A stretch of DNA of 48,572 bases, from the NCBI GenBank assembly GCA_003818505.1, contig RPRI01000028.1:1-48572 (forward strand), read 5' to 3'. Position numbers and translations under genes: made by a program. The notes beneath the pieces were generated by a model, which saw nothing but the letters and a program-made list of their open reading frames with translations, was not told the origin of the DNA and did no database searches. This stretch comes from Desulfobacteraceae bacterium (GTDB taxonomy: Bacteria; Desulfobacterota; Desulfobacteria; Desulfobacterales; RPRI01). Below are positions 5,184 to 33,448 of this stretch, one piece after another. Numbering within the stretch: the stretch's first letter is position 1; every line of letters begins with the position of its first letter.

Positions 5184-8060
5184 TCAGCATGCACCTTCTA
5201 CAATCTTGATTTCATCTGCCGTAAGGCCGTAAAGTTCGTACACCAGACGGTCGATCTCCGCGTCGGTCATCGTAACGGCGTTCTGCAATGCGGCTTTTTC
5301 GGATTCTGATGTTGCCCCGCGCAGCTTCGGCGTCAGCGCCAGCATCTTCTCAACCAAGGCCACGAGTTTATCGTGAATGGTTTTGTCGCCACGGTTTTTT
5401 AGATCAATTTTGGGGAACGGAAGCGAACGTGTTTCATGAAGAACAATCTTCGGAAAATCATCTCGTTGGGCAATATTCGACTTTTGGAGAAAGAACCAAG
5501 AGAGCAACCGGCTATTAATGCAACCAAGCAAAAAGTTTATATCTGGCTCGCCACCCAGCGGCAATGCGCTCTGCATGGACTTATTCGTCACGAAGTCTTT
5601 AGTTACTTTTACCGCTTGAATTTGAAACTTGCGGCTTATCAATTCGCGAATCAGCATCCGTGGGCCTTGGAAGTAGCGGCCCGGCTTCGGTTCAGCGAGC
5701 GTATTATCGAAACGGATGTAAAACTCTATCCCTTCATCCAAAAAATAGCGGCGCACATTCCCTTTGAAAGCGCGAAGGCTGGTCTTATGGGTTGGTTTCT
5801 CTGTCAGTTTGAAAGGTGTGACTCCGCGTTGGATGTCTGCGTAGGTCGAGAATGGAACACTATCCTTTACTAGACGCCGCATCAAAGATGTTGAGCGAGA
5901 GTCTGCGTAAGTGAGAAATATATCGCTTCCATCTGCAAACCATTCGAGAAACTCAGTGGTCTGCATGCCTTGACCAAATTCAGAGGCGCTTTGAATCTTT
6001 TGTCGCTTTGGGAAAGTTTTTAAAGCAACCAGATTCTTCACAGTTCTCGGCCATAAAATCGGTTCTTTTCGTTTTATCACTGCAAAAACTGTCGTGTCCA
6101 CATAAGCATCAGTGAAAACATCATAAGGCAGATTTACAAAGACGGTCGGATCAGTTTTGCAGGCAATGAATCGGCGCAAGGCCGGGAATCTTGCTCCGCT
6201 ATACCATCCGGTTGGCACAATCATCGAAACAAAGCCGCCCGGTCTAACGAGTTTAACTGATTGTTCCATGAAGAGTGCATATGTATCCACTTCACGATTG
6301 GCCACTTCAAATTTCTGCCGGAAATATGCCAAAGATTCTTCGCCAATGTCTGCGCCATACGGCGGATTACCGATAACTGCATCGAATCCTCCGGCTTTCA
6401 TGGCATCGGGGAACTGCGCAGGCCAGTCGAAAGCGTGGATGCGGACGAGGTCTTCTGGGATCATGGAGAAGTCGGAGGCGATAAGGGAGTTTCCACATTT
6501 GATGTTGTGGGATAGATTCGGCAATGCGCGTTCGTGGAAGAATGTCATCTGCTGGGTGAGGGTGGTGTCGTTTTCGCCTTCCAGAGCCTTGAGAAGCAGC
6601 GAGAGTTTGGTTACCTCCACAGCCTGCCGGTCGATGTCCATGCCGTAGATGTGGGTGGTGAGGATGCGTTTGCGTTCGGCAATGGTGAGACGGGTTTCGC
6701 CTTTGGCCTTCTGATAAATGGCCTTGTCGTGTTTGGGGGAGGAGTTGGCTATTTGCCACTTCAGGCAATGGTCCAGCAGAAACTGATAGGCACCGAGGAG
6801 AAAGGAGCCGCTGCCGCATGCCATGTCGAGCACGCGGAAGGGAGGCGTGGTTTTGCCGCCAGCGAGATCGGCTGGGCTTTTGCCTTCAATCTGTTTGCCG
6901 ATGGTGTTTTGGACTATATAGTTCACGATATAGGCGGGGGTGTAGTACACGCCGCCGGCCTTGCGAACTTCGGGCTTTTCCTCCACTTTGGCCTGATGTC
7001 CGGCGGTCAGGCGGATGACTTTGCCGAGGAAGCGTTCATACATCGTGCCTAAGATTTCCACGGGCAGGACGCCAAAGTGGTACGGGCTGCCATGTTCGAA
7101 GTAGAGGCTTTGGAGAATGGGCTTGAGGGCCTTGTCGTCCACGGTCAGACGGGGCGTGAGCGTGTCCGGCGCATCAGAGACTCCGGGTTCTTTCTGGAAG
7201 TGGAACAGGCCGGAGTTGTATTTCTGATCGGCCTTACGGCACAATCCGTTTATAAAATGGTTGTAGATGTCCGACTGCTCACAGAGTTTGAGCAGTTGCC
7301 CTTCAGGCTCCAGTCCCCGATCTTCGGCCATTCGCAGGAAAACGATTCGGTCAATAATCCGTTGAACGGTGGCGTTGAGGTCGTCTGCTGATAAATCGCT
7401 GTTGCGTAGGGCGAGGTTTCGTGCCAATACATCGCGCCATCCTTCGATATCCTTCAGAAACTCGCTGTCAACCTCGGAAGTGCCTCGCTTACGCTTGGAG
7501 GCAGCATACTGGTCGAACGACCCGGACCAGACGGCCTCGCGCGAGAACACGTCCCAAATTTCCCGCCAACGGTCAGGATACTCGGTGAACCCAAAATACT
7601 GGATACGGGCATGGCTGGCCTTGTCGCCGGGACGCGGGCGAGAGGCGCAATCGTACACGCCAAGTTCGTCGAAGTCGGTCAGGATGGACAGGGCAAGTTT
7701 GGCGCTGAAGCCGTAGCGGCGAAGTTGATAGGCTGGTGCGGGATCAGCGCTGATATTAACGCCGCACCTCTTGGCTTCGACGTAGAACTTCGGCAATGTG
7801 CCGACGCGGAAAGTGTAATCGGGTGCCTTCTGTTGGCCTTCCACATCCAGACTGTCTTCGGGAATGACTTCGCGATATTGGGGTGCGGACATGGAGTCGT
7901 TGCGCACGTCCCAACCAAGTGCCTCGAAAAAAGGGTCTATGAGCGATTGGCGGACGTGGGCTTCCTTGACTCCAGGGGCGAGGAAGGACTGCCGGTTAGT
8001 GGCGAAGTACTGACACAGCTTTGCAACTTCATCTTTGCCTTGGTCGAATGTCTTACTCAT
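5184..8060 (-). CDS. Type IIG restriction-modification enzyme (fused nuclease and adenine-N6 methyltransferase, Eco57I-like)
   Basis: The 958-aa protein combines cleavage and methylation. The N-terminus shows a PD-(D/E)xK nuclease: P80-D81 and the E95-A-K97 triad in YVEAKR. The methyltransferase has SAM motif I DMACGSGSF (412-420) and the amino-methyltransferase motif NPPYG (565-569). The C-terminal ~300 residues should hold the target-recognition domain. No separate restriction or specificity gene is adjacent, consistent with type IIG. Base composition is visibly more GC-rich than the flanking genes, suggesting horizontal acquisition. Recognition sequence cannot be predicted. The reading frame is intact, so the enzyme may be active. 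Confidence 0.92.
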   Translation of the reverse strand: MSKTFDQGKDEVAKLCQYFATNRQSFLAPGVKEAHVRQSLIDPFFEALGWDVRNDSMSAPQYREVIPEDSLDVEGQQKAPDYTFRVGTLPKFYVEAKRCGVNISADPAPAYQLRRYGFSAKLALSILTDFDELGVYDCASRPRPGDKASHARIQYFGFTEYPDRWREIWDVFSREAVWSGSFDQYAASKRKRGTSEVDSEFLKDIEGWRDVLARNLALRNSDLSADDLNATVQRIIDRIVFLRMAEDRGLEPEGQLLKLCEQSDIYNHFINGLCRKADQKYNSGLFHFQKEPGVSDAPDTLTPRLTVDDKALKPILQSLYFEHGSPYHFGVLPVEILGTMYERFLGKVIRLTAGHQAKVEEKPEVRKAGGVYYTPAYIVNYIVQNTIGKQIEGKSPADLAGGKTTPPFRVLDMACGSGSFLLGAYQFLLDHCLKWQIANSSPKHDKAIYQKAKGETRLTIAERKRILTTHIYGMDIDRQAVEVTKLSLLLKALEGENDTTLTQQMTFFHERALPNLSHNIKCGNSLIASDFSMIPEDLVRIHAFDWPAQFPDAMKAGGFDAVIGNPPYGADIGEESLAYFRQKFEVANREVDTYALFMEQSVKLVRPGGFVSMIVPTGWYSGARFPALRRFIACKTDPTVFVNLPYDVFTDAYVDTTVFAVIKRKEPILWPRTVKNLVALKTFPKRQKIQSASEFGQGMQTTEFLEWFADGSDIFLTYADSRSTSLMRRLVKDSVPFSTYADIQRGVTPFKLTEKPTHKTSLRAFKGNVRRYFLDEGIEFYIRFDNTLAEPKPGRYFQGPRMLIRELISRKFQIQAVKVTKDFVTNKSMQSALPLGGEPDINFLLGCINSRLLSWFFLQKSNIAQRDDFPKIVLHETRSLPFPKIDLKNRGDKTIHDKLVALVEKMLALTPKLRGATSESEKAALQNAVTMTDAEIDRLVYELYGLTADEIKIVEGAC

Positions 8061-23937: not shown

Positions 23938-25383
23938 ATGCCTTTCAAAATTAAACCGTCGTATCTTTTTATTCTCGTCTCTTTGTTTATATTTATTCAA
24001 ACCGGCTTAATTAATGCCCAGCAGGATAGCGGAAGTCCGGCTCAGGAGAAGGAAGAAATAATCGGGGATGAAATCGGCTCCGGAGCTGTTGATAAAGCAA
24101 CCGCGGAGAAGCTGAGCAAAATGGCACCGGAAGAGGTTCAGGCTCTAGACAGGAAACTTGCTGATGCTCTTGTTCTGTATTATGATAGAGAATTTGTAAA
24201 GGCGCTTCCTATTTTTCTGGAAATAGCAAGCAAGGCTGAGACCATGGATATCATGTTCTGGATCGGGACAAGCGCAATGAAAACCGGAGAGAAGGAACTT
24301 GCTGTTGAAAAATTTAAAAAAATGCTTGTGATCGATCCGCAATTAAACAGGGTAAGACTCGAGCTTGCCACAACCTATTTTTCAATGGGACGTTATGATG
24401 AGGCGAGGAAGGAGCTGGAGATTGTCAAAGCTGCATCTCCGCCAAAGGCAGTTATGGATAACATGTTAAAATTGATGGCTGCGATTGATGAAAGAACCCG
24501 GAAAGTATCTTGGAACCTGAGGTTAGCCCAGGGCGTCATGTGGGACGACAATATCAACTCCGGTCCTGAATTGGATACATTCCAGGTTCTGGGAGGCTCT
24601 CTGACACCGGACAGGATGACGGCTGAACTGGAGGACGAAGGTGCCGTGACCAGCCTTGCCGGAAATCTCCTTTTTGACTTGGGAGAGTCAAAAGGTCTGA
24701 TGTGGAATAACGCGCTGTCATTTTACAACAAGGCATATTTTGATTACAGCGAGTTCAATTTCTTATCAGTTGATGTTAACACCGGACCATGGTGGGTCGG
24801 ACGCAGGGATATTTTCAAAATTCCTGTGGGTTATACTGAAAGAGAATACGGAAGCGACCGTCTCTCTTACATGCTGCACGTTGATCCTGAATATGAGCAT
24901 CATTTCAACCAGTATTTCAGCCTGAAGGGGCTCTATTCATTAAGCGCGGAGAATTTTTATTTCACAAGCAGATCGGGACTTGACAATAACAAGCGCCGTT
25001 TTGAACTGACCCCGGCCTTTTACCTTGATAACCGCAGGCACATTTTTGCCCTTGCGGCCGGGTATGACGACCATGATGCTGATGATGACAGAAACACCTA
25101 TGACGGACCGTACCTCAGCTTATCCTATTTTACAAAATTTCCGACCCAAACAGAACTCTTTCTGCAATATCAGTGGGCTAAGAAAGACTTTGAGGACAAA
25201 CCGCTTCTTTATAACCTCTATCGCGAAGATAAGCGGCAGGGCATAACCGCAGTGCTTAGCCAGGGTTTTATGAAGTATTTTTATGCATCCTTTGCTTTTA
25301 CATACACGGATAATGATTCCAATGCCGAAATATATGATTATGAACGCACCTCATATACTTTCAGTTTAGGCTGCCGTTTTTAA
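23938..25383 (+). CDS. Slam-like outer-membrane protein (signal peptide, TPR, beta-barrel)
   Basis: The 481-aa protein has a Sec signal peptide (hydrophobic residues 9-25, likely cleavage after INA). A linker leads to an N-terminal periplasmic TPR region (about 78-178, with ALPIFLEIASKAETMDIMFW and RLELATTYFSMGRYDEA), then a beta-rich C-terminal domain (about 190-481) with alternating aromatic strands ending in Phe, as in outer-membrane barrels. The strand-1 motif MWDDNIN resembles the start of the Slam/DUF560 barrel. Length and order match Slam proteins, which move lipoproteins and some soluble proteins to the cell surface. The next gene, 24-36 bp downstream, is a candidate cargo. Without a search, a TPR-porin of other function remains possible. 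Confidence 0.72.
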   Translation: MPFKIKPSYLFILVSLFIFIQTGLINAQQDSGSPAQEKEEIIGDEIGSGAVDKATAEKLSKMAPEEVQALDRKLADALVLYYDREFVKALPIFLEIASKAETMDIMFWIGTSAMKTGEKELAVEKFKKMLVIDPQLNRVRLELATTYFSMGRYDEARKELEIVKAASPPKAVMDNMLKLMAAIDERTRKVSWNLRLAQGVMWDDNINSGPELDTFQVLGGSLTPDRMTAELEDEGAVTSLAGNLLFDLGESKGLMWNNALSFYNKAYFDYSEFNFLSVDVNTGPWWVGRRDIFKIPVGYTEREYGSDRLSYMLHVDPEYEHHFNQYFSLKGLYSLSAENFYFTSRSGLDNNKRRFELTPAFYLDNRRHIFALAAGYDDHDADDDRNTYDGPYLSLSYFTKFPTQTELFLQYQWAKKDFEDKPLLYNLYREDKRQGITAVLSQGFMKYFYASFAFTYTDNDSNAEIYDYERTSYTFSLGCRF

Positions 25384-25419
25384 TCTGTTTTTTATCTGTT
25401 TTCTATCATGGAGGAACAC

Positions 25420-28400
25420 ATGAAAAAATATTTCTTTATGGCGCTGATTGTAGTTTTATTTTTGTTTGGATTGGTTTCTTTATCTGTGGCCAATACCGGA
25501 TTTCCCAGAGGAAAATCAGCTGCTGCCGATATTCTTCCTGATGAATTGAAGTCTGTAAAAATTGAGGATTATTTTATAGAATCAAAAGGTTTGCCTGCAG
25601 GTTGGATTCAGAATGCAACAGGACATGTAGTCGTGGTCCATAAGGATACAAGCAGAGCTTATTTTGCTGCGACGGGGGATACAGTTTATCAGGAGGATGT
25701 TTTTTATACTCTGAAGGATTCCAGATGCCGCATCATGTTTTCCACAGAAGATATTATAACGATGGGTGAGAACAGTAAGGTGGTTGCTGATGAAATAGTT
25801 GACGACCGGATATCTAAAGAGAAGAAATCCTCCATAAGCATGTTGAAAGGTAAAGCCATGTTTTACGTGGTGCGCCTGTTCAGATATAAGAATATTTCAG
25901 CAAACGTAAAGACCCCGACTGCCGTTGTAGGTGTCAGGGGAACAAAATTCGGAATTGAGGTGAGAAAAACTGGAGAAAAAGTCGCCGATGTTTCGGACGA
26001 CAGCTTTATTTATCTTGCCCAGAATGAACCGGGTAATATTGAAACAGTAGTTTATGGTTTTGAGGGCACAGTGGATGTAACCTCGACTGTCGACGGAATA
26101 ATGCAGACCTTGGGTGCAGGTGAAAACCTTGTTTTGGATAATGCCGGTGCAGGCGATGTTGAACCGACAGATCCAAATACTGCTAACCAGTTTGTCAGAG
26201 AAACTGAAAGCGGAGGCAGTGACGGTGGTGGTGGATCCGGAAGCTCGGGCGAAGTCGGAACAGACAAGAGCGGGGGAGATACCGGTGCAGGGGTGGAAGA
26301 AGGTGGTGAAACAGGAGAAACTGGAAATACCACCGATACCGACTCTGAAGATGTGGCTCAGACCCTGTCGGCTCAGTCTATAGGGATACCAGGTACCAGA
26401 GTCGGCTATTTTTCAGCTATCCTAACAAGATTTGACGGAGCTAACACTTACCTGGCCGATGTTTATGCCAATTACTCTCGAGTCGATATCAGCAGCAGCT
26501 CGGTGAGCGGAAAATCAATAGTGGACCCTGCCGGATCCATGACTGCAGTCGGGACAGGCTCTGATGAGTTAACTTCTTATCTGACAAGGATAAATACTGT
26601 CGCAGGCGGGCCGTATGACAGTGGTGACCTGGGAACTACATGTGAAATGGATAATGATGTGAACACTCCCGGGTGGCCTGCGGATGAGACTCTTGGCCAG
26701 AACAGTTATATGAAATGGGGATTTTGGCGAATGTCAAGATGGGTGCCGGGGGACAGTACCCCGGCTTTTGCCATTACAGACCGGGCATACTATGTAGAAG
26801 GTTTGCCAACGTCCGATGCTGCGGTTGTTGGTATGTCAGGCGCTTACACCTATGAAGGTCCAGCCTGGGGTACCTACTTTGACGGAGACGGCGGAAAGGA
26901 CATGACCGGATCATTTAAATGCGGAATCAATATGACGGACAAAACGGTGACGGATTTTGATATGTCGGTATCAGGAGGAGGTCGTGCCGCATCCATTGGC
27001 AACGCTTCAGGCAGCTTTTTCGGGTCAAGTGGTGAGTTTAAAATTACGGGAGGGGATTGGTTTTTAACAAATTCGTCACCTTTGAATATTGTTACGGGTG
27101 GGGTAATTCAGTCAGGCGCCAATGCATTATGCACCGGGTCGCTCTTTGGACCGAATGCCGAGCATATGGGAGGAGTCTGGGCTATGGATAAAGGGTCAGG
27201 CGATAATGCTGCTGTCGGCATTTTCGTCGGAGACAAGGGCGGCTCGCCGACTATCCCTGCGGCACCGCCTGATATTCCTTCTCCGCCATCACCGCCCCCG
27301 GATGAACCGACACCGATAACGCCCACTGGTCCTACAGATAAAATGGGTTATTTCACTGCAATGTTAACACGCTATGATGGTTATGAGTATGTTAATAATG
27401 GCATGTTTGTAAGTCATACTTTGGAGGACTTAAATGGGTTGGATAAGGTTGCTTCTGACATCATATATGGTTATACGATGTCAGTGGATGGTTTAGCAGG
27501 GAATGACGGAAAGTTATCATCTGTTGATTATCATGATGGTGGTGGCGGTGGTATAACTGATGGCCCGTATCCTGTCACCCGAACAGTTCTTGATCAGAAT
27601 CTCTATATGGAATGGGGATACTGGACACAAATGAATCCTATGGTCGATACCGAGGGAAATACTAACTGGGTTCATAATAGAGGGTACTATACTGCAGGGG
27701 ATAATACCGCTGATATATCAGCATTAAATCAAACTTGGACATATTCGGGAGGAGCCGAAGGTACCTATTGGACGGCTGCCGGCGGAGCCAACATGACCGG
27801 CTCATTTAATGCTACAGTTAATTTTTCTACCCCGGAAATTACAGACTTTTATCTATCCGTGTCAGGGGAAGGACACAGCGTCAGCATCGCAAATGCTACC
27901 GGTCCTTTGAGCGGCTCTGATTTTGTGCTTTCAGGAGGGACGTGGCAGATTGATAGTTTAGCGGCCACATTAACCGCAGGATACGGATCTGTGTATGGGC
28001 CTGAAGCAGAAGCTATTGGAGGAGTCTGGGGGGTTAAAGAACATGAAGGTGAAATTCCTCAATACGCGACCGGCATATTCCATGGAGACAAGCATAATGA
28101 GCCTATATCCCCAGAGGTACCGTCACCGCCACCAATAACACCCACTGGTCCTACAGAGAAAATGGGTTATTTCACTGCAATGCTAACACACTGTAATGGT
28201 TATGAGGATGTTAATAACGGCGTGTTTGTAAGTCATTATATGCAGGACATAGAAAATGGAACGGATTTAATTGCTGATGACATTGTCAATGGTCATGAGA
28301 TGCACATAGATGGTTCAGAAGAAAAGTTAACCTCGGTTGTTTATTCTTCCGAGAGCGGTGGCGGTGGTATAACAGGCCCCTATCCTGTCAGTCGTACAGA

Positions 28401-28959
28401 ACTTAATCACAATGACTATATGGAATGGGGATACTGGGCGCAGACTACTGCTACCTATACTGCTATGCCCGATAATGATGAATATGATAACTGGATAAAT
28501 AACAGAGGGTACTACATTGCAGGGGATAATACCCCTGACATATCAGCCTTGAATCAAGTGTGGACATATTCAGGAGGAGCCGAGGGGACCTATTGGACTG
28601 CAAATGACGGCCTTCCAGGTGGTGGCATTAACATGACAGGTTCTTTTAATGCCACTGTAAATTTTGGACTTACATCTGGACAGATTACAGACTTTGATCT
28701 GACTGTTTCAGGAGGAGGAAATAACGTTACAATGTCTAATGCGACTGGTTCATTTGACGGCGGCGGTTCTTCTCAATTCACTTTAGATGTCGGGCATGGC
28801 ACGGCGACGACGATCAATAGCGCACCCGTCAAATTAGGAGAAGGATATGGATCAGTATATGGGCCCAGTGCCGAAGCGATGGGAGGAGTCTGGGGAGTTA
28901 AAGAAGATGAAGGTGCAGTTCCTCAATACGCAACCGGCATATTCCATGGAACAAGGTAA
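25420..28959 (+). CDS. Secreted FecR-domain protein with three barrel-like repeats (possible Slam-type cargo)
   Basis: The 1179-aa protein starts at the ATG at 25420, 5 bp after GGAGG; an ATG at 25408 overlaps that site and is less likely. A Sec signal peptide (MKKYFFMALIVVLFLF..., cleavage after SVA) lacks a lipobox Cys. A FecR domain lies at about 83-237 (TPTAVVGVRGTKFGIEV). A Gly/Ser/Glu-rich linker (260-303) precedes three repeats at about 326-607, 639-893 and 912-1179, joined by Pro-rich linkers. Each repeat opens with GYF.A.LTR..G, has the YMEWGYW and GTYW...NMTGSF motifs, and closes with YGP.AE..GGVWG...ATGIFHG. That closing motif resembles the beta-barrel lobes of TbpB and haemophilin. 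Location is likely extracellular; function is inferred only. Confidence 0.78.
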   Translation: MKKYFFMALIVVLFLFGLVSLSVANTGFPRGKSAAADILPDELKSVKIEDYFIESKGLPAGWIQNATGHVVVVHKDTSRAYFAATGDTVYQEDVFYTLKDSRCRIMFSTEDIITMGENSKVVADEIVDDRISKEKKSSISMLKGKAMFYVVRLFRYKNISANVKTPTAVVGVRGTKFGIEVRKTGEKVADVSDDSFIYLAQNEPGNIETVVYGFEGTVDVTSTVDGIMQTLGAGENLVLDNAGAGDVEPTDPNTANQFVRETESGGSDGGGGSGSSGEVGTDKSGGDTGAGVEEGGETGETGNTTDTDSEDVAQTLSAQSIGIPGTRVGYFSAILTRFDGANTYLADVYANYSRVDISSSSVSGKSIVDPAGSMTAVGTGSDELTSYLTRINTVAGGPYDSGDLGTTCEMDNDVNTPGWPADETLGQNSYMKWGFWRMSRWVPGDSTPAFAITDRAYYVEGLPTSDAAVVGMSGAYTYEGPAWGTYFDGDGGKDMTGSFKCGINMTDKTVTDFDMSVSGGGRAASIGNASGSFFGSSGEFKITGGDWFLTNSSPLNIVTGGVIQSGANALCTGSLFGPNAEHMGGVWAMDKGSGDNAAVGIFVGDKGGSPTIPAAPPDIPSPPSPPPDEPTPITPTGPTDKMGYFTAMLTRYDGYEYVNNGMFVSHTLEDLNGLDKVASDIIYGYTMSVDGLAGNDGKLSSVDYHDGGGGGITDGPYPVTRTVLDQNLYMEWGYWTQMNPMVDTEGNTNWVHNRGYYTAGDNTADISALNQTWTYSGGAEGTYWTAAGGANMTGSFNATVNFSTPEITDFYLSVSGEGHSVSIANATGPLSGSDFVLSGGTWQIDSLAATLTAGYGSVYGPEAEAIGGVWGVKEHEGEIPQYATGIFHGDKHNEPISPEVPSPPPITPTGPTEKMGYFTAMLTHCNGYEDVNNGVFVSHYMQDIENGTDLIADDIVNGHEMHIDGSEEKLTSVVYSSESGGGGITGPYPVSRTELNHNDYMEWGYWAQTTATYTAMPDNDEYDNWINNRGYYIAGDNTPDISALNQVWTYSGGAEGTYWTANDGLPGGGINMTGSFNATVNFGLTSGQITDFDLTVSGGGNNVTMSNATGSFDGGGSSQFTLDVGHGTATTINSAPVKLGEGYGSVYGPSAEAMGGVWGVKEDEGAVPQYATGIFHGTR

Positions 28960-28986
28960 TATGATAACGTAAAAATAAGACAGGGC

Positions 28987-31239
28987 CTATTTTGTTTTGA
29001 TTGTATATGCCCCTTTCCAGTCTTTTTCAGGCGGATTTAGTTTATATTCATTGCAGCGGGCCAGCATTGTCTTGCTCGGCCCGTCGTTTATAGTTATGTC
29101 GAGAGCCGATATGAATTGTTTTATAGCAAAATCCCAGTTGCTCTTTCTGTATGCCGCAAGTCCTTTTGCGTAACTGTCAAAAGTCCTGCGCATAACATCA
29201 TCAACATCTTCAGTAATCCCCACGAGTTCGTATATTGTGACAGGCTCATTTCTGCCGACCACGTTCACCGAGTCTATTTCGCGTGTTACAATGCCGTTTC
29301 CTGCTGCAGCAAATGTCGTATCGCTTATCATTGTATAAATGCCGTAAATCTTGTTGACTCCTTCAAGCCTTGCGGCAATATTGACCGTATCTCCCATCAT
29401 CGTATAATCCATCCGATTTTTTGATCCCATGTTTCCCACCACTGCGTTACCGCTGCAAAGTCCTATGCGCATCTTAAGTCCCGGCTTCTTTTCCTGTTTC
29501 CATTTTGACCTGAGAGTCACAAGTCTTTTCTGCATTTTTATACATGCTTTGCAGGCAACTTCCGAATGATTAGGTAAGTCATTCGGCGCTCCGAAAAAAG
29601 CAATTATTGCATCTCCTTCAAATTTATCCACCGTTCCCTCATATTCGAGGATGATATCGGTCATTTCAGTAAGGAACTCGTTCAATAATTCAACCAGCTC
29701 TTTAGGGGAGAGTGTTTCGGAAATGCCTGTAAAGCCTTGGACATCTGAAAAGAAAGCGGTAATATTGCGTTCCTGTCCGCCAAGATTGAGCTTCTCAGGT
29801 GAATCTATGAGCTGTTTTACAACGGAAGGAGCGAGGTATGTCGAGAATGCGTCTCTTATAAATTTTTTCTGTTTGGATTCTGCAATATATCTGTAAAGTG
29901 TAATGCTTACATAGACTATTATCATGACCGAAAGAGGATAAACCAGGTTCAATATCCACCCCTTTCCGGAAAAAAGGAACTGGCACAGAAGAATATATCC
30001 GAAAAATAAAAATATCGATGCAAAAGTGCCTGCCATGACACTGGTTCTTGGTATTATTATTCCAAGAAACAACCCGGCAATGATTATTGCAAATATGTCG
30101 AAAAGATTGGCCCAGCTCGGATGGTGCATAAAGTCTTTGCCGAGAATGCTGTCTATAACATTTGCATGAATTTCAAGACCGGGGAACACATTTGAAAACG
30201 GGGTTACCCTGAGGTCATATACTCCTACGGCGGTTGCTCCTATAAGGACAATCTTATCCTTTATAAGATTTGTATCAGCTTCTCCTTTCAGAATGTCGGT
30301 TACCGGAATATGAGGAAAAGATTTTCCAGTTCCCCTGTAGTTGATTAGTATCCTTCCGAGCTCATCGGTTGGAATCGAGATATCCCCGATTTTTATTTCA
30401 CCGACGCCATATTCATACAATTGAACAGAAGGCTGGCTGTCAAAAAAAGAGCTGATAGCGACAACGGATAACGGAGCATACAGAGAATCCCTGCATTTCA
30501 GAACGGCGGGAAGCCATCGGACTACTCCATCTTCATCAGGAAACATGTTGAAATAACCCGAATAGCCTGTTGTTTCAGAAATGACATTAATATTTGACTG
30601 CGGAGAGAAAGTTTCTATTAGCGGGGCGCTTCTGGCCTGTTCGGAGGAATAAGAAATAGATTTGTATTCCGAGCCCTGAACATTTTTCTGGTGCATGCGG
30701 ATTTCATTTTCATTGATATGCCCGACCGATGCCTCATCGGTCTGGAAAAAATAACCTAGTATCACTTTTGCTTTTGAGTTGCGTATTGCATTTGCAAGAA
30801 GCCTGTCATTGTCCGTATGGAATTTGAGATCCTCAAGATATTTTATCAGTGAGGGATTTGACTGGTTTAAATCTCCCATCTTTTTCTGGATGTCTTCTAT
30901 CGCCCTGACAGTGCTCTTTTCATCTGCTTCAAGAAATCCAATATCGAAAGCGATTACTTTGGCTCCGGCATTTGAAAGCCTGTTGACAAGCTCTGCCATT
31001 TTTGATCTCGGCCAGATCCATTTGCCTTCCTTTGCGATGCTTTTTTCGTCTATTACGGCAAGAACGACATCCGAGGTAGTTGGTACATTCCCTCTTGATT
31101 TGAATCTCAAATCAATGGTTTTCAATTCCATCAAATCCAGAAAAGAAATGCCGTATAAATATGAGAGAGTTACAATAAATACAGCGATAATTGAGATAAT
31201 GACAGGGTTAAACTTTAATTTGTTTTGAAAAAGAGGCAT
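28987..31239 (-). CDS. CHASE2-domain adenylate/guanylate cyclase
   Basis: The 750-aa inner-membrane protein has one N-terminal TM (12-32), an extracytoplasmic CHASE2 sensor (about 35-360), about three TM segments (370-440), then a class III cyclase domain (about 480-660). The metal-binding motifs are FFSDVQGFT (D489) and EGDAIIAFFG (D533), and GDTVNIAARLE (606-616) is intact. K529 and D601/T603 fit an adenylate cyclase. A short TPR-like C-terminus follows. It is convergent with the FecR-barrel gene and separated from it by only 27 bp. It would make cAMP in response to periplasmic or membrane signals; the ligand is unknown. Confidence 0.93.
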   Translation of the reverse strand: MPLFQNKLKFNPVIISIIAVFIVTLSYLYGISFLDLMELKTIDLRFKSRGNVPTTSDVVLAVIDEKSIAKEGKWIWPRSKMAELVNRLSNAGAKVIAFDIGFLEADEKSTVRAIEDIQKKMGDLNQSNPSLIKYLEDLKFHTDNDRLLANAIRNSKAKVILGYFFQTDEASVGHINENEIRMHQKNVQGSEYKSISYSSEQARSAPLIETFSPQSNINVISETTGYSGYFNMFPDEDGVVRWLPAVLKCRDSLYAPLSVVAISSFFDSQPSVQLYEYGVGEIKIGDISIPTDELGRILINYRGTGKSFPHIPVTDILKGEADTNLIKDKIVLIGATAVGVYDLRVTPFSNVFPGLEIHANVIDSILGKDFMHHPSWANLFDIFAIIIAGLFLGIIIPRTSVMAGTFASIFLFFGYILLCQFLFSGKGWILNLVYPLSVMIIVYVSITLYRYIAESKQKKFIRDAFSTYLAPSVVKQLIDSPEKLNLGGQERNITAFFSDVQGFTGISETLSPKELVELLNEFLTEMTDIILEYEGTVDKFEGDAIIAFFGAPNDLPNHSEVACKACIKMQKRLVTLRSKWKQEKKPGLKMRIGLCSGNAVVGNMGSKNRMDYTMMGDTVNIAARLEGVNKIYGIYTMISDTTFAAAGNGIVTREIDSVNVVGRNEPVTIYELVGITEDVDDVMRRTFDSYAKGLAAYRKSNWDFAIKQFISALDITINDGPSKTMLARCNEYKLNPPEKDWKGAYTIKTK

Positions 31240-31474: not shown

Positions 31475-33448
31475 TCATTCCGGTTCCGTTCCTTTTCTGT
31501 AAAGAGCAGTTGTAACAACCTGTGATTCGGATGCTGCCGGATGGCTTGTTGCAGGATCTATCTTTACAAGGACTACCCCGTCAGGCACTTTAAAGACCTC
31601 ATCCTGTTTGCTTGAAAGGGCTTTTGACATAAAATCGATCCATACCGGGAGGGCTGTTTTTGCACCTGTTTCTCCTTTACCAAGAGAAGCCGGAATATCA
31701 CGGCCAACCCATACTCCTGCCAGCACCGACGGTGAGAAGCCGATAAAAAGTGCGTCCTTGTGATCATTGGTTGTTCCTGTTTTGCCTGCAACAGACCGGT
31801 TTAGGACACGTGCAGCAGCTCCTGTGCCTTCGTTTATTACAGCTTCCAGCATGTTTGTCATTATTGCGGCCCCTTCTTCAGACATTGCAATCCTTTTTTG
31901 GGGTTTTGTCCGCCATATGATATTGCCTCTGTGATCTTCGACTTCGGTAACGCAGAAGGGTTTGATATATTTTCCCATGTTTGGAAATACAGCGTAAGCT
32001 GATGAGAGTTCTACCAATGTCATACCGGATGTGCCGAGAGCAAGAGAAAGGTCGGGGGCAAGAGGAGTTACTATCCCGAGTTTGTGGGCAAATTGAGCTA
32101 CTGAAGAAGGGCCGAGAATTTCCGCAAGCCTTATGGCAGGAATATTCTCTGAAATGGCAAGAGCCCTTCTTAATGTTATTTCTCCTTCATACCCGCCTGA
32201 ATAATTATGAGGTATCCAGTCTTTGCCGCTTTTCCCGCCTTTAAAGGCAACCGGGGCATCCAGAAGCAATGAATGCTGGGTAAACCCGCGTTCAACTGCA
32301 AGGGCATAAATAAAAGGTTTGAATGCCGACCCGGGCTGTCTTAAAGCCATTGTAGCCCTGTTAAAGGGGCTTTTATAAAAATCATTGCCTCCTGTCATGG
32401 CAACGATTCCACCGGTCTTTATATCAATTGCGATAAGAGCGCACTGAGGATCCGGATTTGACATGCCGCGTTTTTTCATTCTTTTTGCTATTGCAGCGAT
32501 TCCGTTTGCCGATGACTCTTCGGCAGCATCCTGCAGATTTGACAAAAGAGTGGTATGAACGGTAAGCCCACCTCTGTACAATCTTGATGCGCCAATTACT
32601 TCTTCGAGATAGTTTTTTACATATTCGGTAAAATAAGGTGCTATGACCCTGCTTTGCTCATGATTAAAAAGTATAACGGGATTACCTGCCGAAGTATTAT
32701 ATTCGGTTTCGGAGATTATTCCCGTTGCCAGCATCTGCTTTAGTACGATATTTCGTCTTTTTTGAGCCGCATTCAAATTTATGAGAGGAGAAAAACGGGA
32801 AGGTGATTTGGGCAAACCGGCTATCATGGCGCATTCGGTAAGACTCAGGTACTTTGCTGATTTTCCGAAATACAATTTCGAAGCCGATTCAACACCGTAA
32901 GCGCCGCTTCCGAAGTATATCTGGTTGACATACAGTTCCATTATTTCATCTTTGGTATAGCGGCGTTCAAGCTGAAATGAAAGGATAGCTTCCTTGATTT
33001 TCCGCAGCAAACTTTTTTTCGGGGTAAGAAAAAAAGTTTTTGCAACCTGCTGTGTTATGGTGCTTGCGCCTTCGGCATATTCCCCCGCAATTATATCTTT
33101 TATTATTGCACGAAGAATTCCTTTTATATCCACCCCGCTGTGCCTATAAAAGGTTCTGTCTTCCGTTGCAACAAGCGCTGCTTTGAGATAATATGGTATC
33201 GTTTTAAGCTGTACAGGTTCTCTTTTTTCCAGGTAAAGCTCCGAAAGCAATATCCCATCGGCGGAATATATCCGTGTCACTCCTGCCGGCCTGAAAGACT
33301 CAAGCGAGCGTATCTGGGGAAGATCCCTTGTTAATGCAATAAAAGTTCCTGCAATAATACCTGATATAAAAGCTGCAAATATAATGATGCATATTTTCCG
33401 GAAGCTGAAAAGACGATTATTTTTATCGGAAATTACAAAATGTTTCAT
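31475..33448 (-). CDS. Penicillin-binding protein 1A family (bifunctional transglycosylase/transpeptidase)
   Basis: The 657-aa inner-membrane enzyme polymerises and crosslinks peptidoglycan. The N-terminus has a short cytoplasmic part and one TM (about 18-40). The GT51 domain contains EDRTFYRHSGVD (96-107; Glu96 catalytic) and STITQQ (129-134). The transpeptidase domain has S374-A-F-K377 (nucleophile Ser374), SEN (433-435) and KTGT (556-559). The length is a little short of long PBP1A versions with inserted OB domains. It is on the opposite strand to neighbours on the right, so it is probably transcribed alone. mrcA/pbpA-type naming is uncertain. Confidence 0.95.
   Translation of the reverse strand: MKHFVISDKNNRLFSFRKICIIIFAAFISGIIAGTFIALTRDLPQIRSLESFRPAGVTRIYSADGILLSELYLEKREPVQLKTIPYYLKAALVATEDRTFYRHSGVDIKGILRAIIKDIIAGEYAEGASTITQQVAKTFFLTPKKSLLRKIKEAILSFQLERRYTKDEIMELYVNQIYFGSGAYGVESASKLYFGKSAKYLSLTECAMIAGLPKSPSRFSPLINLNAAQKRRNIVLKQMLATGIISETEYNTSAGNPVILFNHEQSRVIAPYFTEYVKNYLEEVIGASRLYRGGLTVHTTLLSNLQDAAEESSANGIAAIAKRMKKRGMSNPDPQCALIAIDIKTGGIVAMTGGNDFYKSPFNRATMALRQPGSAFKPFIYALAVERGFTQHSLLLDAPVAFKGGKSGKDWIPHNYSGGYEGEITLRRALAISENIPAIRLAEILGPSSVAQFAHKLGIVTPLAPDLSLALGTSGMTLVELSSAYAVFPNMGKYIKPFCVTEVEDHRGNIIWRTKPQKRIAMSEEGAAIMTNMLEAVINEGTGAAARVLNRSVAGKTGTTNDHKDALFIGFSPSVLAGVWVGRDIPASLGKGETGAKTALPVWIDFMSKALSSKQDEVFKVPDGVVLVKIDPATSHPAASESQVVTTALYRKGTEPE

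Follow-up and report, generated by a model that had tools for sequence, protein, structure and literature searches.

A 48,572-nucleotide stretch of DNA from a Desulfobacteraceae bacterium, a relative of sulfate reducers (GenBank assembly GCA_003818505.1, contig RPRI01000028.1, positions 1 to 48,572 of the forward strand; hereafter the window) was analysed around a three-gene locus at 23938-31239. Here a gene for a predicted Slam, the outer-membrane protein of the type 11 secretion system (T11SS), is followed by a gene for a secreted protein with a FecR domain, its putative cargo, and the pair meets a gene for a class III cyclase with a CHASE2 sensor domain. An earlier sequence-only reading had proposed a Slam-type system with a FecR-containing, non-lipidated cargo, perhaps linked to cyclic AMP (cAMP) signalling. 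The three genes lie where it had placed them, and the CHASE2 gene does converge on the pair, with 27 bp between its stop codon and that of the cargo. The cargo, said to begin about 35 bp behind Slam, starts 36 bp after the Slam stop if the likelier ATG at 25420 is used and 24 bp after it in the listed open reading frame (ORF). No terminator was listed between the convergent cargo and CHASE2 genes, and the 71-nt stretch there folds no better than shuffles (z = 1.5). The features are as follows (TPR, tetratricopeptide repeat).

23938..25383, + strand: Slam (T11SS outer-membrane protein), 481 aa; SlipAM match, AlphaFold2 model
24127-24498, + strand: TPR helices of Slam, about residues 64-187; AlphaFold2 model
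24505-25380, + strand: 14-strand barrel of Slam, residues 190-481; AlphaFold2 model
25408..28959, + strand: FecR-headed cargo, 1183 aa as listed; FecR Pfam match, model, PDB matches
25702..25983, + strand: FecR domain of the cargo, residues 99-192; Pfam match, Foldseek matches 4m0n and PupR 6ovk_R
26392..27243, + strand: cargo lobe 1, residues 329-612, handle and 8-strand barrel; AlphaFold2 model of residues 29-612
27334..28086, + strand: cargo lobe 2, residues 643-893; 66% identity to lobe 3, best slam_lipo stretch 735-880
28156..28956, + strand: cargo lobe 3, residues 917-1183; motif and sequence likeness to the other lobes
28987..31239, - strand: CHASE2 class III cyclase, 750 aa; Pfam CHASE2 and Guanylate_cyc
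30070-31179, - strand: CHASE2 domain of the cyclase protein; Pfam
about 29236-29769, - strand: cyclase domain of the CHASE2 protein; Pfam

Analysis of the 481-aa exporter with Pfam revealed a significant match to SlipAM (DUF560; 59 bits, cut-off 22) that covers profile positions 1-286 of 288. TPR_2 also passed (31.1 bits, cut-off 27) and TPR_Slam fell just short (32.2 bits, cut-off 35.2). The AlphaFold2 model, built from 39 sequences, has a mean predicted local distance difference test (pLDDT) score of 88.3 and consists of TPR helices and 14 strands, the strand number of Slam; published Slams combine TPRs with a predicted 14-stranded barrel (PMC5449769). The DUF560 similarity and strand number expected by the sequence-only reading were thus both recovered, as were the signal peptide (signal peptides were judged by eye throughout), the TPRs, the C-terminal barrel and its WDDNIN start, which occupies residues 202-207. 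Foldseek comparison of the model with the PDB returned generic TPR-barrel exporters and porins, with BcsC first and PelB also present and no Slam among the matches. When the sequence profile was compared with solved structures, TPR proteins alone were found among the best 60 of 62 rows. The closest named kin come from Desulfobacterales, Syntrophaceae and other deltaproteobacterial metagenome-assembled genomes, and the gene gives the sole SlipAM match of the source genome (a 4.43-Mb, 352-contig assembly).

The cargo runs from a signal peptide through a FecR domain (44.9 bits in Pfam, cut-off 24) and a Gly/Ser/Asp-rich linker to three predicted handle-barrel lobes, each with one copy of the motif [FY]GPxAExxGG near its end: FGPNAEHMGG in lobe 1 (residue 580, position 27145), YGPEAEAIGG in lobe 2 (residue 863, position 27994) and YGPSAEAMGG in lobe 3 (residue 1151, position 28858). 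Three repeats ending in YGP.AE..GGVWG had been described; the motif does occur three times, but the first copy reads FGP..GGVWA. Lobes 2 and 3 are 66% identical and lobe 1 shares 36-38% with either; the barrel fold of the C-terminal lobe 3 is assigned by sequence likeness alone, from its 38% identity to lobe 1 and the common motif. Profile searches for a TbpB-type barrel missed their curated cut-offs, with 20 bits for TbpB_B_D (PF01298, cut-off 26) and 44.3 bits over three stretches for NCBIfam slam_lipo NF041636 (cut-off 80). The AlphaFold2 model of residues 29-612 (23 sequences, mean pLDDT 75.8, barrel mostly above 90, linker unstructured) places eight barrel strands behind a handle-like region in lobe 1, in agreement with the TbpB-type 8-stranded barrel that had been predicted for the repeats. 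Its top Foldseek match in the PDB is the C-terminal domain of NHBA (6cuj_A, E 1.5e-7), followed by TbpB; haemophilin, fHbp and LbpB are likewise among the matches. The FecR part separately matches the FecR-type anti-sigma factor 4m0n and the PupR cell-surface signalling domain 6ovk_R. Comparison of the cargo sequence profile with solved structures gave TbpB 5kkx at 8.8e-6.

No lipobox was detected in the cargo, whose first 60 residues lack cysteine. Because the lipobox cysteine is absent, classification as a surface lipoprotein was rejected, and the earlier description of a FecR-containing, non-lipidated cargo stands. A FecR anti-sigma factor was rejected too: the protein begins with a signal peptide, and no Pfam match to a cytoplasmic anti-sigma part or an extracytoplasmic function (ECF) sigma factor was identified in the cargo or in five other proteins scanned around it. 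The locus has the FecR domain fold in common with FecA-FecR-FecI and PupB-PupR (6ovk_R, 4m0n) and differs from them in having no anti-sigma N-terminal part, sigma-factor gene or TonB receptor among the scanned neighbours, the latter being absent from 16 scanned ORFs of the window. The product of 28987-31239 gave 201.9 bits for CHASE2 (cut-off 26.3) and 80.2 bits for Guanylate_cyc (cut-off 21.9) in Pfam.

These profile matches and models support a locus made of a TPR-barrel outer-membrane protein and a non-lipidated, FecR-headed cargo with three putative TbpB-type lobes, tail to tail with a CHASE2 cyclase, and its predicted identity as a T11SS, a Slam with its cargo, is highly probable. With Neisseria Slam1 and Xenorhabdus HrpB the exporter shares the TPR region, the SlipAM 14-strand barrel and a gene adjoining that of a barrel-bearing secreted protein; it differs in that its partner has a FecR head, its host is of Desulfobacterales type and its export activity is predicted. 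The cargo resembles T11SS cargos (TbpB, haemophilin, NHBA and multi-barrel Sphingomonas and Psychrobacter surface proteins) in its handle and 8-strand barrel lobes, as modelled for lobe 1, and in its putative C-terminal barrel, and two to three handle-barrel copies have been described in T11SS effectors (PMC12282271). Unlike these, it carries a FecR head, has no lipobox although it is multi-lobed, and scores below the TbpB_B_D cut-off. A FecR head is not among the regions listed in the section on effector regions of PMC12282271, and neither FecR nor CHASE2 appears in the main texts of the T11SS surveys PMC12282271 and PMC8406197. A literature search, confined to one library and without supplements, returned no paper joining a FecR domain with Slam, DUF560 or T11SS, and three joining FecR with CHASE2.

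The distribution of such pairs was examined in Desulfobacterota. SlipAM was identified in 37 of 146 genomes of the window's order, the window's own included. From two sets of loci (L024, L026, L031-L068 and L109-L142; each Slam counted once, window excluded) we compiled 62 distinct Slam-like proteins, of which 59 have at least 700 bp of sequence downstream. The SlipAM loci represent 40 of 51 match rows outside the window, 11 mostly weak rows having been left out; L109-L142 lean to the window type because they were found by likeness to the window Slam. Searches with our own Slam, FecR and barrel profiles, built from the fetched loci and prone to catch plain TPR proteins too, revealed a FecR gene within 1.5 kb of Slam in 50 of the 59 loci, against about 0.13 expected from an average of 2.4 FecR genes (Pfam, 40 genomes) per 4.2-Mb genome. 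This chance figure, like the one given below for CHASE2, treats loci as independent though relatives are not, and assumes 4.2-Mb genomes. FecR was fused to a barrel in 28 of the 59, and some barrel gene was present in 34. Slam-like proteins have two types of partner, FecR-barrel cargos and barrel-less FecR proteins of about 315-480 aa whose tail is disordered. The tails of the latter (in L041, L046, L049, L051, L060, L062, L063, L064 and others) often end in a PPFPxxPE-like motif and give no TbpB-type barrel match.

Trios with CHASE2 were found outside the window's family in L031 (family f21, at the same CHASE2 locus), L035 (f34) and L047 (f26); in L035 and L047 Slam, FecR and CHASE2 run on one strand at sites other than the window's. 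CHASE2 is present in all 37 SlipAM genomes compared with 120 of 146 overall (hypergeometric P = 2e-4, uncorrected for genome size). Several loci of the census depart from the simple pair. L050 (2015-5302) has a 1095-aa class III cyclase with AAA and TPR regions and no CHASE2 beside a barrel-less Slam-FecR pair, and L113, L114 and L117 have two FecR-domain cargo genes per Slam, of which the second is truncated in L117 where the contig ends. The Slam reading frame of L066/L112 (1-1263, genome G003) is in two pieces, and in L052/L132 (Olavius algarvensis Delta 4 symbiont) FecR and barrel lie in different overlapping frames; either sequencing error or decay may be the cause.

A cluster of CHASE2 cyclase, phosphodiesterase, FecR-domain outer-membrane protein and TPR protein has been reported in Campylobacterota (PMC9239204), in a section that names neither Slam nor a TbpB-type barrel. 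The window has the CHASE2 cyclase, FecR-domain protein and TPR protein in common with it and differs in having GNAT and PBP1A neighbours and no adjacent cAMP phosphodiesterase. Our starting point was Arcobacter sp. EP1 (L163), which carries the trio together with a cAMP phosphodiesterase; its genome gives no PF04575 match at E 1e-3, though the TPR-barrel protein matches our Slam profile at 2e-42. CHASE2 occurs in 48 of 100 genomes of its order, and 20 CHASE2 loci, each from a different genome, were taken from 59 rows, mostly high-scoring and not a random sample. Contiguous FecR and Slam-profile genes were found at 11 of them (L189, L191, L192, L196, L198, L200, L201, L202, L205, L206 and L207). 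In L189 and L192 the CHASE2, FecR and Slam-profile genes abut on one strand together with a phosphodiesterase gene. FecR adjoins CHASE2 in L203, with a Slam-profile match 5 kb off; L195 and L199, both truncated at contig ends, retain an abutting barrel piece. Among the 11 loci and L163, Pfam FecR passed in all 12, SlipAM in three (L189, 30.4 bits; L192, 35.5 bits; L207, 30.3 bits) and TbpB_B_D in four (L189, L191, L192 and L196); L189 and L192 have a TPR protein above the SlipAM cut-off together with a FecR protein above that of TbpB_B_D. Profile-profile comparison of ten Campylobacterota TPR-barrel proteins with the Desulfobacterota Slams gave an end-to-end alignment of 419 columns (probability 100, E 2.2e-55, 20% identity).

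A third setting is plasmid pAMI5 of Paracoccus aminophilus, where a TPR protein, a FecR protein and a CHASE2 cyclase are encoded on one strand with gaps of 9 and 12 bp. Pfam gave 29.8 bits for FecR, 22.1 for TbpB_B_D (under 26) and 14.9 for SlipAM; since the last misses its curated cut-off, the exporter is Slam-like by our own profile alone. A plasmid search found no relatives of the window cargo on plasmids. Three successive genes of L144 and L146 (Crenothrix, Methylococcales) encode Slam, a 402-aa protein and a protein whose TbpB_B_D match stays below threshold, and the 402-aa protein of L146 lies over the Pfam cut-off for CsgG and just under that for FecR. Slam neighbours with lipobox-like starts in the alpha- and gammaproteobacterial loci L157, L168, L177, L179, L180 and L184 match our barrel profile at 2e-10 to 4e-4.

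FecR and CHASE2 were also found together away from Slam. A FecR gene lay within 1.5 kb of CHASE2 at 8 of 40 Slam-free Desulfobacterales CHASE2 loci (0.09 expected), which were drawn from among the matches listed, mostly high-scoring rows rather than a random sample. All eight were confirmed for FecR by Pfam, and three come from one family. L082, L086, L101 and L102 count as Slam-free because Pfam identifies their Slam-profile matches as TPR/SpoIID or TPR/SLH proteins. Elsewhere, Methyloprofundus has FecR with a CHASE2 cyclase and Variovorax has a LysM-FecR protein with a CHASE2 kinase; the Burkholderia BiofilmReg operon encodes a LysM-FecR protein and a CHASE2 histidine kinase (PMC5192318), sharing with the window a FecR protein beside a CHASE2 sensor and differing in the lack of Slam and barrel and in having a kinase instead of a cyclase. 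FecR adjoins CHASE2 whether Slam is there or not, and TbpB-type barrels accompany Slam both with FecR and in its absence; the fused FecR-barrel cargo bridges the two pairings.

FecR-TPR proteins stand directly before a CHASE2 cyclase in L213 (Sinorhizobium meliloti pSymB, 1219 aa) and L214 (Methylocystis, 1227 aa); in L213 (2745-8353) the FecR-TPR gene, unannotated in that record, overlaps the cyclase start. A C-terminal barrel is presumed from length and the terminal phenylalanine; the OMP_b-brl_3 profile gave 12.3 bits (cut-off 27) in L213 and no such match in L214. In S. meliloti the CHASE2 cyclases CyaK and CyaD1/D2 depend on the outer-membrane receptor NsrA, which has a barrel portion at aa 600-1200, for their response to signals, uL2 included (PMC7529298, PMC13001267), and CyaK is SMb20776 (PMC5498481). 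NsrA with CyaK and CyaD1 places an outer-membrane barrel protein upstream of CHASE2 cyclases; L213, with FecR and TPR in one 1219-aa protein beside a CHASE2 cyclase, resembles it, and NsrA itself may carry FecR. In the window, FecR and TPR-barrel are split over two genes and the FecR protein has TbpB-type lobes. The SMb tag denotes pSymB, and from the tag of CyaK L213 is likely, though not certain, to be nsrA-cyaK.

Our favoured reading, held tentatively and at a little under an even chance, is that the pair is a T11SS whose cargo leaves its FecR head in the periplasm to signal to CHASE2 cyclases. Slam is modelled in the literature as recognising a C-terminal motif (PMC9090332), so that a FecR head would trail. 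Slam would recognise the C-terminal lobe, and the lobes, once across the outer membrane, would form an ectodomain for binding or adhesion. Trailing at the N-terminus, the FecR head would remain in the periplasm at Slam and could contact the periplasmic CHASE2 domain of the inner-membrane cyclase; ligand binding outside, or the export state, would then alter cAMP inside. Slam and its cargo would then form the outer-membrane component of a system comparable to FecA-FecR surface signalling or to NsrA with CHASE2 cyclases. Within this reading, signalling is the uncertain element: a link to cAMP signalling, suggested in the sequence-only reading, has gained a recurring gene association but is association only. 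A wider version, in which a trans-envelope module uses the T11SS to deliver a receptor ectodomain, a periplasmic FecR head gates CHASE2 sensors, NsrA is the one-piece version and FecR is a general periplasmic input to CHASE2, is a doubtful but real possibility.

A number of observations weigh against this favoured reading, beginning with the history of the window's locus, which two flanking genes help to trace.

31475..33448, - strand: PBP1A-type transglycosylase/transpeptidase, synteny anchor of the older CHASE2 locus; Pfam, likewise neighbour in L031, L083, L096, L099, L108 and L209
23293..23820, - strand: GNAT acetyltransferase, the other synteny anchor; Pfam, present in L042, L096, L099 and L108

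The window's CHASE2 gene belongs to a lineage sampled from many families, most of whose sampled members lack a Slam neighbour: its well-supported set has 29 rows, and 6 are Slam-linked. The order PBP1A, CHASE2, GNAT and a gene for a 353-aa protein occurs without the Slam pair in L096 and L099, and PBP1A, CHASE2 and the 353-aa gene do so in L083. The pair stands between CHASE2 and GNAT in the window and L042, and behind PBP1A-CHASE2 in L031, from another family, where the far side is lost to the contig end. In G001 (L108), of the window's genus, Slam and most of the cargo have been lost while CHASE2 is intact; a 109-aa cargo remnant is left between CHASE2 and GNAT (L108, 10253-10582), facing CHASE2. 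The cargo at this position in G009 (L044), of the same genus, gives no FecR match; L044 (4818-6893), L039 and L061 carry barrel cargos at like positions whose N-terminal part is without a FecR match and scores weakly with our Slam profile, perhaps as TPR repeats. Because the pair sits at an older PBP1A-CHASE2-GNAT locus, is absent in related families and was lost in G001, the CHASE2 neighbour of the window alone was rejected as evidence of a link; the adjacency in this lineage could reflect one landing and proves little by itself. Beyond the window, 14 Slam-like proteins (L024, L026, L037, L041, L046, L048-L051, L053, L060 and L062-L064) pair with a short barrel-less FecR protein and have no CHASE2 within 6 kb. 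The trio had been expected to be conserved in other genomes: it does recur beyond the window's family, in a second phylum and in an alphaproteobacterium, but in Desulfobacterota CHASE2 lies within 6 kb at only 8 of the 43 Slam loci that extend 4.5 kb or more downstream. Four of these eight are from the window's genus (L032, L033, L042 and L044), the others being L031, L035, L047 and L065, and CHASE2 in L065 is without a cyclase match. Among the Campylobacterota CHASE2 loci, neither FecR nor Slam was found at 6 of 20 (L190, L193, L194, L197, L204 and L208), the SlipAM cut-off was missed in 8 of the 11 positive loci, and in L202 and L205 a weak TPR match accompanies a short FecR protein, barrel and other Slam matches being absent. 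The cargo families of the two phyla align in the FecR part only (profile-profile E 1.4e-24), not in the barrels.

The scarcity of CHASE2 at Slam loci and the existence of a CHASE2 locus without the pair, which G001 lost while keeping CHASE2, would fit an ordinary T11SS pair whose cargo is secreted or displayed in full, together with its FecR head, to serve in adhesion or in metal or haem binding, with CHASE2 an accidental neighbour; soluble single-barrel T11SS cargos are known (PMC8406197). We consider this explanation rather unlikely, since separate FecR-Slam-CHASE2 neighbourhoods exist in Campylobacterota, Paracoccus and two further Desulfobacterales families (L035, L047) and FecR adjoins CHASE2 even without Slam. 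The FecR head might instead be an anchor that plugs or grips Slam from the periplasm and keeps the unlipidated lobes on the surface, with no part in signalling. The missing lipobox of the window cargo, lipobox-like strings in just 2 of 34 FecR-barrel rows of relatives (duplicate contigs included), the persistence of FecR-Slam pairing where CHASE2 is not near and a weak LapA retention-module match over the FecR domain (15.6 bits, cut-off 50) point that way; the repeated FecR-CHASE2 pairing, with or without Slam, would be left unexplained, and we regard an anchor without signalling as improbable. Less probable still is the reverse arrow, in which the CHASE2 cyclase responds to some other input and the FecR and Slam genes are an output under cAMP control. 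It has a precedent in S. meliloti that also counts against the favoured reading: the FecR protein SMc02177, encoded next to smc02178 and near cyaD1, is a cAMP-Clr target and dispensable for signal perception (PMC5498481). CRP-type sites, however, are not in excess in the window (18 found, 18.1 expected), a result that speaks against either direction of a cAMP link, and the reverse arrow leaves unexplained the FecR-TPR proteins that abut CHASE2 cyclases and the need for NsrA upstream.

If the favoured reading of a periplasmic FecR head reporting to CHASE2 is true, type 11 secretion would extend from the delivery of nutrient-binding and adhesive proteins to signalling, and CHASE2 sensors, whose recognised signal is given as unknown in PMC5192318, would gain a candidate protein partner. 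It would also tie together the T11SS cargo surveys, the Campylobacterota cAMP cluster, the Burkholderia FecR/CHASE2 operon and NsrA.

The window holds 36 ORFs of at least 150 aa; among the 16 scanned, those beyond the trio locus are mostly housekeeping genes (gyrase A, thiolase, EngA, GpsA and others). An Eco57I-type restriction-modification methylase of 958 aa is encoded at 5184-8060, and the G+C content of 6001-8000 (0.543) is above that of its surroundings.

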